Shown: one piece after another, positions 4,723 to 11,452 of the stretch
Layout of the letters: the number at the start of each line of letters is the position of its first letter
How positions within the stretch are numbered: the stretch's first letter is position 1
Assembly: GCA_017795005.1 (NCBI GenBank)
Contig: CP051242.1
Location: forward strand, 3,278,119 to 3,342,118
Origin: Balneolaceae bacterium
GTDB taxonomy: Bacteria; Bacteroidota; Rhodothermia; Balneolales; Balneolaceae
Direction: 5' to 3'
DNA: 64,000 bases
Notes under the pieces: model-generated
Databases searched by the model: none
Told to the model about the DNA's origin: nothing
The model's input: only the letters and a program-made list of their open reading frames with translations
Position numbers and translations under genes: made by a program

Positions 4723-7700
4723 TTATGAAGAAAGAACCAGTTCAACAGATTCTTCACCTAAAACTTCTTTCAATCCTTTCAGTAATTCATCGTTCGGTTC
4801 CACTACAAAATTACGGACATTCATCTTAATAGGAGCATTCGCTTCTTTACTATGTACCGCCATTTTCACCATGATAGTACCTTTATTCAGCTCAAACAAG
4901 GTTTGCATCTGATTAAGATCTTCGTGTGTTAAACCATCGGTAACAATATCCAGTTTGAGTCGAAGTCGATCCTGAAATTTCTCTCGTAGATTTTCCACTC
5001 GCTCCATGTTGGTCACAATCATACTGTTTCCACGATCCCTTTTACTGTATCGTCCGGTAAAATAAATCACATTATCGACCTGAAGAAGCGCTGAAAACTT
5101 ATCGAACTCTTTGCTAAAAACGGCTACTTCCAGCGAAGAGTACAAATCCTCAACCATAAGGAATGCTATCGGACGACCTTTACGATCGGTGGCCTGTCGT
5201 TTCGAAGTAATGATAGCTATAAACCGAAGCTCTGAATCGTGCTGAAGTTTACTCATACACTCTTCCGTCAGGTTTTGCTTTCCAAACAGCCGAATATCTT
5301 CCTGATACCGGTTTAATGGATGTCCACTCAAATAAAAACCGATTAATTCACGCTCTTTATTAAGTCGTTCAATACTGCTCCATTTTGGGACTTCTTTGAG
5401 TTTTGGTTCCTGAAGAACCCCGCTGCCTGAAGCTCCACCAAATAAGTTCACCTGGTTCAATCGCTGCTCCTCCTGCTTTCTTGATGCGAAAGCCAGAATA
5501 TCCTCTACTCCAAATAACAACTGAGCACGGTTCTCATTCAACTCATCAAAAGCTCCGGCCTGAATCAGACTTTCCAGAGTTCTTCGGTTGCATACTCTTA
5601 AATCAACCCGTGAAGCGAAGTCGAATACACTCGTAAACAAACCATTTTCCTCACGCTCTTCCACAATGTGTTTAATTGCAGAAGAGCCAACTCCTTTAAT
5701 AGCGCTCATTCCGTACTGAACCCGACCATCTTTAGCCACAAATTTTCCGCGGGCAGTATTGATATTCGGAGCATCAACGGGAATTCCCATCTTCTGACAT
5801 TCTTCTATAAACGACGCCACTTTCTTAATGTCGCTCATATTATGACTCATAACCGCCGCCATATATTCTGCAGGATAATTGGCTTTGAAATACATAGTGT
5901 GATAGGCCACTACCGAATATGCTGCAGAGTGAGATTTGTTAAATCCATAGCCCGCAAACATGGCCATTTTGTCAAACACTTCTTTCGCAGTATTTTCGTC
6001 ATAGCCAAGTTCTTTCGCCTGATTCACAAACTTTTCTTCCTCAGGTGGAAGAAGTTCCGGCTTCTTTTTACCCATGATCCGGCGAAGTACATCCGCTTCT
6101 CCAAGAGAGTAGCCACCCATTTGCTGTGCTACTTTCATGATCTGCTCCTGATAGATCATAATCCCGAACGTATTTTCCAGAAGCGGAATTAAATCTTCGT
6201 GATCATATTCTACTTTTTCCCGCCCATGTTTACGTTCGATATAATTTGGGATAAACTGTATTGGTCCGGGACGATAAAGCGCGTTCATCGCAATCAAATC
6301 GTTTATATCTGTTGGTTTCAAATCCTTCAGATATTTTCTCATCCCCTCACTCTCAAACTGAAATGTCCCTAAGGTGCCTCCCTTTTGATAGAGTTTGTAT
6401 GTTTTGGCATCGTCAAGAGGAATATCATCGAGGTTGTATTCGATACCGTGATTTTCTTTCACATATCCAATAGCCGTTTTCAGAATCGACAGCGTTTTTA
6501 GTCCCAGAAAGTCCATCTTCAGCATTCCCGCATATTCTATCACGCTTCCATCAAACTGAGTAACGGTCAGGTCTGCATCTTTAGCGGTACTAACCGGAAT
6601 GAACTCTGTAAGGTTATCAGGAGCAATGATAATACCTGCGGCATGGATTCCTGTGTTCCGAACCGAACCCTCCAGTACATGAGCCATTTTGAGGGTTTCA
6701 GCTTCAAGTCCTTCGCCCGCTTTAATATCTCTGAGTTCCTTCACTTCTGAAAAAGCGTCGTCCAGCGAAGTACCCGGGCGCTCGGGAACCAGTTTTGCAA
6801 TACGGTCGGCATCGGCTAAATCAAGATCAAGCACTCTGGCAACGTCTCGTACAGATGACCGTGCTGCCATCGATCCAAACGTGATAATATGAGCAACCTG
6901 ATCTTTCCCATATTTATCTACTACATACTCAATTACTTTTTGACGTCCATCATCGTCAAAATCGATATCTATATCAGGCATGGATACACGCTCGGGATTC
7001 AGAAAACGCTCGAAAAGCAGATCATATTCCAGTGGATCGATATTGGTAATTCCGGTACAATAAGCAACCACAGAACCAGCTGCTGATCCACGACCCGGAC
7101 CAACATACACCCCCATATCCCGTGCTGCAGCGATGAAATCCTGCACAATGAGAAAGTAGCCCGGAAAGCCCATGCTTTTAATAATTCCCAGCTCGAGATC
7201 AATACGTTCTTTTACTTCATCCAAAAAATCAGGATATCGTGTTTTGGCACCTTCCAGGGTTAAGTGTTTCAGATAATCATCTTCATCTTCAAAACCTTCA
7301 GGAATTTCAAATTTGGGAAGAATCACATCCCGCTTGAGCTTGATGAGTTCAATTTTATCTACAATTTCCTGTGTATTGGCAATAGCTTCCGGCATTTCCG
7401 GAAAAAGCTCTACCATCGCCTGCGTGTCTTTGAAATAAAATTCCTCATTGGGAAATCCATATCTGAATTCTCTTCCCTTTCCAATGGGAGTCCCCACCAA
7501 TGTGCCATCATCAATACAGATTAAGGCGTCATGCGCTTTTGCATCTTCCTGCTCAAGGTAAAAGGCATTGTTACTTGCAACCAGTTTTACACCGTATTTT
7601 TCAGAAAACTCTTTAAATACTTCGTTAACCCGTTGCTCTTCATCCAGTCCGTGATTAATGACTTCCAGATAGAAATCATCCCCAAAAACTTCCATCCACC

Positions 7701-8931
7701 ATTTCAGCTCTTCCTCTGCATACTCTTCACCCTTATTCAGTATCAAATCACCCAGCAAACCACGAGTGTTGCCACTCATACAAATCAGGTGTTCACTGTA
7801 TTGTTTGATTACCTCCTTATCTACACGGGGGAATTTGTAGTAATACCCTTCAGTGAATCCAACAGAACAGAGTTTAGCCAGATTTTTATAGCCCTCCTGA
7901 TTTTTGGCGAGCATCGGGATTTGATAGCGCCGGTCTCTGTTTTCACGGGTAAATTTCTTTTGAAGCCGGTCATCCACCACAAAAAATTCACAACCAACAA
8001 TCGGTTTAACTCCTTCTGCTTCGGCAGCCGATACGAAAGCAAAAGCACCATACATATTACCTTTATCGGTCAGAGCTACCGCCGGCATTCCCAATTCTTT
8101 AGCCTTGGCAACTAAATCTTTAACTCCCGCTGTGGCTTGCAATACTGAAAATTTGGAATGGCAATGCAGATGGGTAAAAACCACATCCTTATCAAGTTCT
8201 ACTTCCGGTTCAGTCGTTTCGACTCCGGAAGACTCTGATTCTGTTATTTCCTCATCTTTTTTTTTGAGCCGGGATGGAGAAACCAGATCGATGTAATGCT
8301 CTCTGACCATATAACTTTGAGACGACTCATATAGTCGGGCATCCAGCGGAAAGTTTACCGTAATTACACCCAATCTAACCAGTTCGAGGAAGGCACGGGT
8401 AGTCGCTTCCACATCGGCTGCGGCGTCGTGAGCATCTTCGAAGTCAGTTCCGAATAGTTTTTTATGCAGCTCCGTTAATGTAGGCCACTTAAAACCGCCT
8501 CTTCCGTTTGGAATCCCAACATATTCTGTACTCTCATCCTTCGTATCAATTTTGGGCTTATCCATGATAGCAGAGGCGATCTTCTTTCGAAGAAATTCTG
8601 CGCCCATCACACTTTCATCAAACGAAACATTGTGCCCAACAAGGAAATAAGCTTTGTCTATGTCTTTCCGAAATGCCTGAAGTACGAATTCAAGATCCTG
8701 ACCTTCTTTCTGCGCGCGTTTGGTAGAAATACCATGAATTTTCTCAGAGTTGAATGGGATTGTAAATCCTTCCGGTTTAACAATATAGTTCCCACTGCTC
8801 ATCAATTTCCCGGTGTGATCGTGGAGTTGCCACGCTAACTGGACTAGTCGCGGCCAGTTATCAAAATCGGTGATGGGTGCGGAATAATCCCGGGGAAGTC
8901 CCGTGGTTTCGGTATCAAAAATCAGATACAT
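4723..8931 (-). CDS. dnaE: DNA polymerase III alpha subunit with fused N-terminal exonuclease
   Basis: The 1402-residue protein joins a DnaQ-like proofreading exonuclease to a complete DnaE. Residues 1-190 form a DEDDh exonuclease with all motifs: FDTETTG (ExoI), GHNVSFDE near 99-106 (ExoII) and HDAAADVE near 168-175 (ExoIII). An acidic linker (about 220-250) leads to the PHP domain starting HLHCHS at 254. The polymerase palm carries GPGRGSAAGS near 611 and the metal-binding PDIDIDFDD at 652-660. The tail holds the helix-hairpin-helix region and an OB fold (about 1230-1320). It is larger than the roughly 1160-residue E. coli enzyme because of the fused domain, so polymerisation and proofreading may be in one chain. 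The start is supported by AAAGGCA about 8 bases upstream. Confidence 0.97.
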   Translation of the reverse strand: MYLIFDTETTGLPRDYSAPITDFDNWPRLVQLAWQLHDHTGKLMSSGNYIVKPEGFTIPFNSEKIHGISTKRAQKEGQDLEFVLQAFRKDIDKAYFLVGHNVSFDESVMGAEFLRKKIASAIMDKPKIDTKDESTEYVGIPNGRGGFKWPTLTELHKKLFGTDFEDAHDAAADVEATTRAFLELVRLGVITVNFPLDARLYESSQSYMVREHYIDLVSPSRLKKKDEEITESESSGVETTEPEVELDKDVVFTHLHCHSKFSVLQATAGVKDLVAKAKELGMPAVALTDKGNMYGAFAFVSAAEAEGVKPIVGCEFFVVDDRLQKKFTRENRDRRYQIPMLAKNQEGYKNLAKLCSVGFTEGYYYKFPRVDKEVIKQYSEHLICMSGNTRGLLGDLILNKGEEYAEEELKWWMEVFGDDFYLEVINHGLDEEQRVNEVFKEFSEKYGVKLVASNNAFYLEQEDAKAHDALICIDDGTLVGTPIGKGREFRYGFPNEEFYFKDTQAMVELFPEMPEAIANTQEIVDKIELIKLKRDVILPKFEIPEGFEDEDDYLKHLTLEGAKTRYPDFLDEVKERIDLELGIIKSMGFPGYFLIVQDFIAAARDMGVYVGPGRGSAAGSVVAYCTGITNIDPLEYDLLFERFLNPERVSMPDIDIDFDDDGRQKVIEYVVDKYGKDQVAHIITFGSMAARSSVRDVARVLDLDLADADRIAKLVPERPGTSLDDAFSEVKELRDIKAGEGLEAETLKMAHVLEGSVRNTGIHAAGIIIAPDNLTEFIPVSTAKDADLTVTQFDGSVIEYAGMLKMDFLGLKTLSILKTAIGYVKENHGIEYNLDDIPLDDAKTYKLYQKGGTLGTFQFESEGMRKYLKDLKPTDINDLIAMNALYRPGPIQFIPNYIERKHGREKVEYDHEDLIPLLENTFGIMIYQEQIMKVAQQMGGYSLGEADVLRRIMGKKKPELLPPEEEKFVNQAKELGYDENTAKEVFDKMAMFAGYGFNKSHSAAYSVVAYHTMYFKANYPAEYMAAVMSHNMSDIKKVASFIEECQKMGIPVDAPNINTARGKFVAKDGRVQYGMSAIKGVGSSAIKHIVEEREENGLFTSVFDFASRVDLRVCNRRTLESLIQAGAFDELNENRAQLLFGVEDILAFASRKQEEQRLNQVNLFGGASGSGVLQEPKLKEVPKWSSIERLNKERELIGFYLSGHPLNRYQEDIRLFGKQNLTEECMSKLQHDSELRFIAIITSKRQATDRKGRPIAFLMVEDLYSSLEVAVFSKEFDKFSALLQVDNVIYFTGRYSKRDRGNSMIVTNMERVENLREKFQDRLRLKLDIVTDGLTHEDLNQMQTLFELNKGTIMVKMAVHSKEANAPIKMNVRNFVVEPNDELLKGLKEVLGEESVELVLSS

Positions 8932-9078
8932 AAAATGCCTTTCGTACGTGCGTGATCTACTGAAATTACTCTTTGAATATAGGGTACAAAACGCAGCTTA
9001 TCTCGGGAAGTTTTCCACAAGTTGTTAAGGAATATTTTTCTGGAATTCTCAAAAAGGCATTTACATTCTCAATCAATA

Positions 9079-9107
9079 CACATATAATGCACATATAATT
9101 ATATGTG
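9079..9107 (+). promoter_or_regulatory. Candidate operator upstream of umuD
   Basis: A perfect 18-bp palindrome, CACATATAATTATATGTG (9090-9107), is preceded by a direct copy of its left arm, CACATATAAT, at 9079-9088, so left-arm starts are 11 bp (one helical turn) apart. It ends 14 bases before the umuD start and overlaps the probable promoter and ribosome-binding region (GAGGAG just after it). Its position suits a LexA-type or other dimeric repressor; the protein that binds is unknown. Confidence 0.55.
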
Positions 9108-9121
9108 AGGAGAATTGACTA

Positions 9122-9604
9122 ATGGACAAATTAACATCGTATTCCGCGCAGTCTTATGATGAAGACTCAGATATGCTGAAACTGTCGAGGAAAATTGAAA
9201 CCGGATTCCCGTCTCCTGCGGGAGATCATCTTGAAAAAGCACTGAGTCTGGAGGAACTGATTGTACACCGACCTACCTCCACTTTTTATGTACGGGCAGA
9301 AGGAAATGCAATGAAAGCCGCCGGGATTTATGACGGAGATATCCTGGTCGTTGACCGTTCTCTGAATCCACAAAATGGTTCCGTAATTATCGTTTCCTTA
9401 GATGAGGAAGTAATTATTCGTCGCTTTGTAAAAAAAGGAAATCGCGTATTCCTAGTTTCGGGAGATGTAAAATATGCGCCTATCCCTATTAATGAAGGTA
9501 CCGAGTGGATGGTATGGGGAGTAGCTACGTATCTGATTCACCGCTTTAGTAACAGACAGGAAGAAGAGAAAGGACGAGAGGAGAAAGTGTATGAGTTTGG
9601 TTGA
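9122..9604 (+). CDS. umuD: UmuD-like S24 family protein, catalytic dyad lost
   Basis: The 160-residue product aligns along its length with UmuD, the autocleaving partner of DNA polymerase V: GFPSPAGD at 28-35 matches the region after the E. coli cleavage site, and GIYDGDILVVDRS and the WGVATYLIH end are conserved. However, the nucleophile motif GDSM is here GNAM (Ala63 from codon GCA), and the general-base Lys position is Arg100 in VIIRRF. Both members of the Ser-Lys dyad are therefore replaced, and self-cleavage should be impossible. The frame is otherwise intact and preceded by a good ribosome-binding site, so this does not look like a decaying pseudogene. It lies upstream of umuC but is separated from it by an inserted gene. 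Confidence 0.85.
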   Translation: MDKLTSYSAQSYDEDSDMLKLSRKIETGFPSPAGDHLEKALSLEELIVHRPTSTFYVRAEGNAMKAAGIYDGDILVVDRSLNPQNGSVIIVSLDEEVIIRRFVKKGNRVFLVSGDVKYAPIPINEGTEWMVWGVATYLIHRFSNRQEEEKGREEKVYEFG

Positions 9605-9611
9605 AAGAAGG

Positions 9612-9652
9612 GACAAAGAAGACAAGACACAGAGGGACTAAGGCACAAAGTG
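9612..9652. repeat. Left flank repeat of the four-helix-bundle gene
   Basis: This stretch, read on the minus strand, contains CTTTGTGCC and CCCTCTGTGTCTTG, a degenerate inverted counterpart of the CTCTGTGC tandem array on the other side of the gene (10031-10083). Together they make imperfect inverted flanks around the four-helix-bundle gene. Confidence 0.5.
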
Positions 9653-9670
9653 TAACTCAAATGAATAATT

Positions 9671-10030
9671 ATGAATACAATTAAAAACTATCGTGATTTA
9701 ATTGTCTGGCAAAAAGCTATGGTATTGGTGAATAAGGTGTATAAAATTTCAACCGAATTCCCGGAGCAAGAGAAATATGCATTGACCAGTCAATTAAGAA
9801 GAAGTGTTGTATCCGTTCCTTCTAACATAGCTGAGGGTTATGGGAGACGGTCGTCCGGAGATTATATCAGATTCTTAAATATTGCTATGGGATCACTTTA
9901 TGAGATGCAAACACAACTTGAAATAGCTTTAAACCAGAATTATTCTAAGAAAGAAGCTTTTGATATTCTTTATGAAGACAGTCGTGAAGTTGAGCGAATG
10001 CTAAGTTCATTAATCAACAAATTAAAATAA
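9671..10030 (+). CDS. Four-helix-bundle protein (23S rRNA IVS/S23 family)
   Basis: This 119-residue helical protein belongs to the family of four-helix-bundle proteins first noticed inside 23S rRNA intervening sequences and related to the Avd accessory protein of diversity-generating retroelements. Diagnostic segments are YRDLIVWQKAM near the N-terminus, LRRSVVSVPSNIAEGYGR at about 42-59 and a long C-terminal helix. The biochemical role of free-standing members is unknown. It sits between umuD and umuC, flanked on both sides by degenerate CTCTGTGC-type repeats, which suggests that it arrived as a small unit. The start ATG at 9671 follows a poor ribosome-binding site. Confidence 0.9.
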   Translation: MNTIKNYRDLIVWQKAMVLVNKVYKISTEFPEQEKYALTSQLRRSVVSVPSNIAEGYGRRSSGDYIRFLNIAMGSLYEMQTQLEIALNQNYSKKEAFDILYEDSREVERMLSSLINKLK

Positions 10031-10083
10031 CTCTGTGCCTCTGTGCCTCTGTGCCTCTGTGCCTCTGTGCCTCTGTGCCTCTG
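10031..10083. repeat. 8-bp tandem repeat, 6.6 copies
   Basis: Six perfect copies of CTCTGTGC plus a partial CTCTG fill the space between the four-helix-bundle gene's stop and the umuC start at 10097. There is no spacer between units. Such arrays are prone to slipped-strand length change, here in the leader of umuC. Confidence 0.95.
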
Positions 10084-10096
10084 AAAATAAAACACC

Positions 10097-11452
10097 ATGA
10101 ACCTCAACTTCCTTCCATCGCATTCCCGGAACTTGGCTTATGCCATGATTGATTGCAACAATTTCTATGCATCGTGTGAAAGGGTATTTGACCCTGCTTT
10201 GAATAATAAACCTATCGCTATTTTATCGAATAATGATGGCTGTGTGATAGCTCGTTCTCAGGAAGCTAAAGATGCCGATATCCCGATGGGAGCCCCGGAA
10301 TTCAAATACAGAAAACTGTTCAAAGAAAAAGGAGTGGCGATTCGCTCCTCAAATTATGCGTTGTATGGAGATATGTCTCACCGGGTTATGGAAACACTCC
10401 GATTCCTTACTCACGATATTGAGGTATACAGTATCGATGAAGCTTTCGCAGAGCTTTCTACCAATATTTATCCAACACTGGATGAATATGGCACCGTCAT
10501 CAAAAACACCATTTTAAAATGGACCGGATTGCCTGTATCGGTAGGTATCGCACCAAGTAAAACCCTGGCAAAAATTGCGAATCATATTGCCAAGAAAAAC
10601 CCGGAATTCAATAATGTGTTAGACCTTACCAATCACCCGAATATCGACCGTTTATTAGAAAAAATACCCACACAAGATATATGGGGAATCGGACAGGGAC
10701 TCACCATCCGCCTGAACCGATATGGCATTAATACTGCGCTGGATTTAAAGAAAACCATTAACAACAAAAAATGGGTACGCAAGCATCTGGCAGTAACAGG
10801 ATTACGAACCGTACTGGAGTTGAATGGATTTCCCTGCTCAGGATTAAGTGAAGGAAGAGATTCGCGTAAAGGTATTCTTACCTCAAGAATGTTTGGAAAA
10901 CCTTTATACAAGCTTTCGGATGTTCAGGAAGCGGTTGCCACCTTTGTGAGTCGGGCAGCTGAAAAACTTCGGGCACAAAACTCTGTCGCTTCCAATATTC
11001 ACGTAAATTTAATTGGTGATAAATATGAGAACATCCGGGGGAAATATAAATTTGGCGCCAGTTATCCCATGAAAGTCCCCACTGCCCATACTCCTACCAT
11101 GATTAAAATAGGGAAAGCCCTCACCGCACACGCTTTTGAAGAAGGCCGGAAATATAAAAAAGCTTCAGTGATGCTTACCGGTATCTTTCCCAATAGTGAA
11201 GTTCAAATGGATTTGTTTGATCCTGAATTATACACCCAACGACAATACCAATTAATGGAATGTATTGACCGGATTAACTCCAAATTTGGAAGAAATCATG
11301 CCGCTTTTGCTGCAACCGGACTTCATAAAAAGGGGGGCCATAGAAATAAATGGCTGATGAATCAGAATTATCTGAGTAATCGCTACACCACCAGATGGGA
11401 TGAATTATTGATGGTGAAAACAGAGATTAATATTAATAAGACGTCATCCTGA
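10097..11452 (+). CDS. umuC: Y-family DNA polymerase V catalytic subunit UmuC
   Basis: The 451-residue protein is a full-length Y-family translesion polymerase. It starts with the palm motif MIDCNNFYASCE (residues about 17-28, first metal-binding Asp), has ARSQEAKDADIPMGAP, and carries the second metal site YSIDEAFAEL near 112-121. Thumb helix-hairpin-helix motifs (IWGIGQG) and a little-finger domain follow, with a C-terminal segment typical of UmuC rather than DinB. Together with UmuD it would copy past lesions. No Shine-Dalgarno sequence is obvious, because the octamer repeat occupies the leader. Confidence 0.95.
   Translation: MNLNFLPSHSRNLAYAMIDCNNFYASCERVFDPALNNKPIAILSNNDGCVIARSQEAKDADIPMGAPEFKYRKLFKEKGVAIRSSNYALYGDMSHRVMETLRFLTHDIEVYSIDEAFAELSTNIYPTLDEYGTVIKNTILKWTGLPVSVGIAPSKTLAKIANHIAKKNPEFNNVLDLTNHPNIDRLLEKIPTQDIWGIGQGLTIRLNRYGINTALDLKKTINNKKWVRKHLAVTGLRTVLELNGFPCSGLSEGRDSRKGILTSRMFGKPLYKLSDVQEAVATFVSRAAEKLRAQNSVASNIHVNLIGDKYENIRGKYKFGASYPMKVPTAHTPTMIKIGKALTAHAFEEGRKYKKASVMLTGIFPNSEVQMDLFDPELYTQRQYQLMECIDRINSKFGRNHAAFAATGLHKKGGHRNKWLMNQNYLSNRYTTRWDELLMVKTEININKTSS

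Follow-up and report, generated by a model that had tools for sequence, protein, structure and literature searches.

In the window, a stretch of 64,000 nucleotides from a Balneolaceae genome, positions 9122–9604 (+) hold a umuD gene with a predicted dismantled self-cleavage apparatus, as judged from the open reading frame, S24 match, alignment and fold. The open reading frame encodes 160 amino acids, begins with an ATG preceded by a GAGGAG ribosome-binding site, and contained no stop or frameshift when these were looked for. The product was assigned to the S24 peptidase family by Pfam S24 (E = 4.7e-25). The core of its AlphaFold monomer, with a pLDDT above 90, matched the UmuD' crystal structures 1umu and 1ay9 as well as full-length UmuD (8gmt), with TM values of 0.91–0.93 by target length. 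Both the S24 domain (profile match) and the UmuD' fold (AlphaFold model) are thus present, and an earlier sequence-only reading of this DNA, which had described the fold, the GFPSP region and the open frame as intact, is borne out.

The same reading had placed alanine and arginine at the catalytic positions, and alignment with E. coli UmuD agreed in both cases. Ala63 (codon GCA; 9308–9310, +) sits in GNAM and aligns with the nucleophile Ser60, while Arg100 (codon CGT; 9419–9421, +) aligns with the general base Lys97. The E. coli reference letters were verified against PDB entry 8gmt, which has Ala at the aligned position where the wild type is Lys97. The former scissile bond aligns with Thr27-Gly28 (9200–9205, +), giving a P1 residue of Thr, in contrast to the Ala-Gly or Cys-Gly of cleavable UmuDs. 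The GFPSPA block, in which GFPSP corresponds to the N-terminus of UmuD', is intact in the alignment. Upstream of the old cut site is an uncut N-terminal arm, residues 1–27 (MDKLTSYSAQSYDEDSDMLKLSRKIET; 9122–9202, +), defined by alignment and start-site reading, which ends in E-T and has no PL[FY] anchor, the Pro-Leu-Phe of E. coli (L17/F18) being gone. Self-cleaving S24 proteins require the Ser/Lys dyad and an Ala-Gly or Cys-Gly scissile bond, and this UmuD has neither. With Ser60, Lys97, the Ala/Cys-Gly bond and the PLF anchor all lost, it is predicted to be without any basis for self-cleavage.

A second, intact umuD serving the same umuC would have overturned this picture. The genome (one contig, 3.75 Mb, 99.5% complete) was scanned for S24 genes and has just two over the cut-off, umuD and an intact lexA, with no second UmuD. 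A sequencing error or strain-specific defect in umuD was ruled out because 40 genomes carry the same losses.

To judge from its residues, the dyad loss in UmuD is wider than first stated and is a property of the whole Balneolaceae, a family from marine and saline habitats, rather than of one genome. The Ser/Lys pair is kept in 0/40 readable UmuDs of this GTDB family compared with 108/113 elsewhere, the latter being those of the rest of the class plus the nearest matches among about 85,000 species genomes. This contrast (Fisher 1e-31) counts kin genomes separately and is therefore one of lineages, not of independent events. The outside UmuDs were retrieved with the dead Balneolaceae family as the query, so close dead relatives elsewhere should rank high if they exist. 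The sequence-only reading had asked if relatives conserve the Ala/Arg pair; the loss of the dyad is conserved, but the exact residues are not. Of the 40, 27 have Arg and 13 have Cys at the Lys position, and the Ser position is Ala in 22, with Gly, Asp, Glu or Asn in the rest apart from three that still have Ser, all three of which have Cys at the Lys position.

The cleavage site and the arm differ across the family as well. P1 is Thr in 38/40 Balneolaceae UmuDs, compared with Ala or Cys in 108/110 outside, and this column (C24) separates the two sets best, followed by L17, K97, F18 and P16, with S60 and the neighbours of Lys97 ranking close behind. The L17 column is mostly K, E or N in the family and Leu in 84% outside; the P16 column is mostly Leu or Val, as against Pro in 92% outside. 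The alignment columns thus display loss of the L17/F18 anchor, the mark of the state exemplified by the E. coli variant UmuD3A. Part of the family keeps another L-x-L pair, at arm residues 19 and 21 in this protein, by which the arm could conceivably still dock. The Glu-Thr just before the old cut site is nearly invariant (ETGFPSP), and the arm is 22–29 residues long, with a length of 27 in most of one half of the family.

UmuDs of the sister family, in the same order, have an intact dyad in 8/8 cases. In the UmuC tree the Balneolaceae form one clade (support 100), sister to this intact-UmuD family (support 95), so that a single loss of the dyad in the Balneolaceae ancestor would be the simplest account. 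This single origin is taken from the UmuC tree, since a tree of UmuD alone, with 111 columns, did not resolve the three Balneolaceae groups. In other families of the class, 4/5 dead-dyad UmuDs (L058, L060, L061 and L084) have little or nothing left of the arm, a sign that selection may keep the UmuD' state once the protease is lost. Among L058, L060 and L061, which belong to another family of the class, L058 begins exactly at the old cleavage point (MAFPSP), and L060 and L061 begin at MRF. L084 has a 12-residue arm with Thr-Gly, and Glu and Arg.

The umuD gene is maintained by selection. Between close pairs its dN/dS, a check proposed with the sequence-only reading, is mostly 0.02–0.2, indicating purifying selection, and pseudogene status was rejected on this basis. 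Pooled over ten pairs, dN/dS was 0.11 for the arm and 0.065 for the core. The uncut arm is therefore itself under selection, although it would be disposable if merely left behind. The idea that an internal start yields UmuD' directly was also rejected, as no conserved start was found near the old cut site across the family. In AlphaFold monomer models the arm had a pLDDT under 50 in both the dead UmuD and a cleavable UmuD, so these models leave its state undecided.

The partner gene umuC (10097–11452, +) was identified by profile match and motif reading, with its catalytic Asp and Asp-Glu motifs intact (MIDCNNFYASCE and YSIDEAF), as they are in 38/38 Balneolaceae genomes examined. Genomic partnership with umuC, one mark of a genuine UmuD, was found: among Balneolaceae genomes, several of them drafts, 40 have both genes, 3 and 1 have umuD or umuC alone, and 48 have neither (P = 2.5e-21). 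In one genus, where umuD and umuC are non-adjacent, three species have a broken umuD, and umuC is broken in two of these and was not found in the other; the two genes decay together. UmuC differs sharply between groups at several positions beside its catalytic motifs (A118, M17, I42, R83 and E68) and in the C-terminal tail that binds UmuD'. Examples of the changes are Leu to Ala three positions beyond the catalytic Asp-Glu and ELP to ELM in the tail. These differences would fit co-adaptation with an uncut UmuD, with long-branch divergence an alternative.

Between umuD and umuC lies an insertion (9625–10086, +; profile match and repeat reading). It contains a four-helix-bundle gene of the 23S-rRNA-IVP type (PF05635; 9671–10030, +; profile match), flanked by inverted CTCTGTGC-type repeats at 9625–9651 and in an array at 10031–10086 (repeat reading). 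The gene was not found at this position in two congeners or in G036, and a divergent copy fills the same gap in G032 and G033. Together with its repeat-rich border, the PF05635 insertion looks like a putative mobile unit. A longer (CTCTGTGC)n array is found elsewhere in the genome (G000:C1:3186762-3186856). There are 15 PF05635 genes in this genome, and 5–15 in many Balneolaceae. One of them (G000:C1:219489-219758) directly adjoins dinB (218369), so that each of the genome's two Y-family polymerase genes has a PF05635 neighbour, possibly by chance; in a congener, the PF05635 gene at G039:C3:456546 adjoins dinB (455437).

The upstream region contains a putative LexA operator, the direct repeat ATACACATATAATGCACATA (9076–9095, +), at −46 from the umuD start codon, which matches the published Balneolaeota motif TTACACATATTTTWTACATA at 15/20 positions. 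In other Balneolaeota, LexA is published to bind this direct repeat at SOS promoters, with polymerase V among the genes of its regulon (PMC7739468); the operator here was identified by sequence. A LexA-type box is located at −34 to −54 in most Balneolaceae members whose umuD adjoins umuC, while a pattern search before umuD in the sister family found none. Boxes in this genome were sought by pattern alone, with 4 matches and 0 for a reversed control. Of the other three matches, two adjoin no obvious SOS gene and the last is close to a radical-SAM-like gene. Control of the operon by LexA, as part of the SOS response, is another mark of a UmuD and is represented here by a putative operator, and the LexA of the genome, having Ser, Lys and the Ala-Gly site, is predicted to be cleavable. 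Because a LexA-type box precedes umuD and LexA is intact, damage-dependent transcription of umuD appears to have been kept, with only the protein-level switch lost.

A perfect 18-bp palindrome, CACATATAATTATATGTG (9090–9107), overlaps the second half of the LexA direct repeat and precedes the ribosome-binding site. The box lies in the intergenic region common to umuD and the genome's only DnaE (window 4723–8931, −), which is divergent from umuD and by reading has an exonuclease-like N-terminal part. In genus g3 (L027–L029 and L031) umuD is not next to umuC, encodes Gly in place of Ser and is without a LexA box; given this absence, umuD may be expressed there without SOS control. The first description can now be sharpened, in that the loss appears to be ancestral and family-wide, in a gene under joint purifying selection with umuC and with LexA control seemingly kept. 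That description had mentioned neither the Thr at P1, the lost arm anchor, the LexA-type box nor the gene inserted before umuC.

In the textbook account, RecA-driven self-cleavage of UmuD acts as a timer by which mutagenic repair is delayed. We consider it fairly probable that Balneolaceae UmuD has lost autoproteolysis wholly and that the uncut protein serves a Pol V-type polymerase as its accessory dimer. Residues 14, 17 and 18 of E. coli UmuD fasten the arm to the globular domain, and the laboratory variant UmuD3A (T14A L17A F18A), which is full length and non-cleavable with a weakly bound arm, mimics UmuD' (PMC5342242). Balneolaceae UmuD resembles UmuD3A in its changed anchor positions L17/F18; UmuD3A, however, was engineered at the three anchor residues only, whereas the Balneolaceae protein is natural and family-wide, and its dyad and P1 are also lost. 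UmuD3A was reportedly first described by Beuning et al. in 2006.

Since dyad and anchor residues are both lost, Balneolaceae UmuD would combine a dead protease with a released arm. The arm would no longer be anchored over the old active site, and full-length UmuD2 would adopt the same conformation as UmuD'2 and bind UmuC in the same way. To switch the polymerase on, derepression by LexA and loading of RecA would then be enough, without the delay of RecA-triggered cleavage, and the ~27 additional residues that precede the old cut site would have become a lasting component of the complex, kept by selection. In models of E. coli Pol V, the N-terminus of UmuD' enters the UmuC cleft close to the active site (PMC11791011, PMC12926913), so the extra residues would have to pass over or through UmuC, and the retained arm probably lies on UmuC or near its active-site cleft. 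The suggestion of the sequence-only reading, that UmuD is either held in one constant state or activated independently of RecA-driven cleavage, has gained support. As for the state, which we infer from the residues, loss of the arm anchor would favour a UmuD'-like, polymerase-competent form over a locked full-length one. More tentatively, and as a serious possibility, we propose a family-wide Pol V in which RecA-driven cleavage was abolished once, full-length UmuD is permanently active and UmuC has co-adapted to hold the arm.

It is unlikely, but conceivable, that the uncut UmuD2-UmuC complex is instead locked 'off' or as a checkpoint, mainly slowing replication or restraining other polymerases, with lesion bypass being rare or carried out by others. 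Full-length UmuD with UmuC acts in this way early in the E. coli SOS response, and uncleaved UmuDC delays mutagenesis. UV mutagenesis is also greatly reduced when E. coli UmuD carries S60A and cannot be cleaved (PMC5342242). A locked form would also agree with an arm that is retained and selected, and with the presence of a DinB-type polymerase in the genome. However, the anchor needed for the arms-down state has been lost in Balneolaceae, the polymerase motifs of UmuC are kept in every genome examined, and elsewhere in the class a dead dyad accompanies arm loss (L058 and L060/L061), which points to selection of the UmuD' state.

Slightly less probable again is that another enzyme cuts UmuD in trans, be it LexA, some general protease or a peptidase associated with SOS, with UmuD' still made. 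A partner subunit can cut E. coli UmuD S60A in trans (PMC5342242), the LexA of this genome has an intact dyad, and GFPSP, the would-be N-terminus of UmuD', stays conserved. Yet there is no second UmuD in the genome, selection acts on the arm, whose length hardly varies, and P1, the anchor and the residues beside Lys97 have changed together, as expected if no S24-type active site recognises the site. Decay of the operon, with the substitutions as early pseudogene damage, seems very improbable. It would account for the broken umuD of three species in a single genus, whose umuC is broken or missing, and for the foreign gene between umuD and umuC here, but not for the low dN/dS (0.02–0.2) or for the frames that stay intact in about 40 genomes sharing these losses, most of them with LexA boxes. 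Purifying selection thus contradicts decay as a general explanation, although individual species could still fit it.

Balneolaceae UmuD shares with E. coli UmuD/Pol V (UmuD'2C) the S24 fold, GFPSPA, the operon with an intact umuC and a LexA-type operator, and differs in being without Ser60, Lys97, the Ala/Cys-Gly bond and the PLF anchor. The HumD gene of phage P1 encodes UmuD' directly. HumD, L058, L060 and L061 are UmuD-type subunits needing no cleavage, as is probably the case for Balneolaceae UmuD, but they have no arm, whereas the Balneolaceae proteins keep a selected arm of 22–29 residues. The YqjX/YolD-type UmuD analogues of Gram-positive bacteria, small predicted partners of UmuC-like polymerases with no S24 protease, belong to a different protein family (PMC6511836, PMC12926913). 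UmuDAb of Acinetobacter is likewise a UmuD homologue with altered regulation but, unlike Balneolaceae UmuD, is a self-cleaving repressor with an N-terminal domain for repression (PMC8565304, PMC4807011). Among the open-access papers searched, with the subscription literature outside the search, no prior report of a UmuD loss of this type was found.

Removal of the cleavage apparatus, with the gene, the arm, the polymerase and the SOS operator kept, suggests that a Pol V can be maintained without the timer. The Balneolaceae offer a natural full-length UmuD with which to ask what the arm does in the complex, and in this family the mutagenesis switch probably operates without a cut in UmuD.
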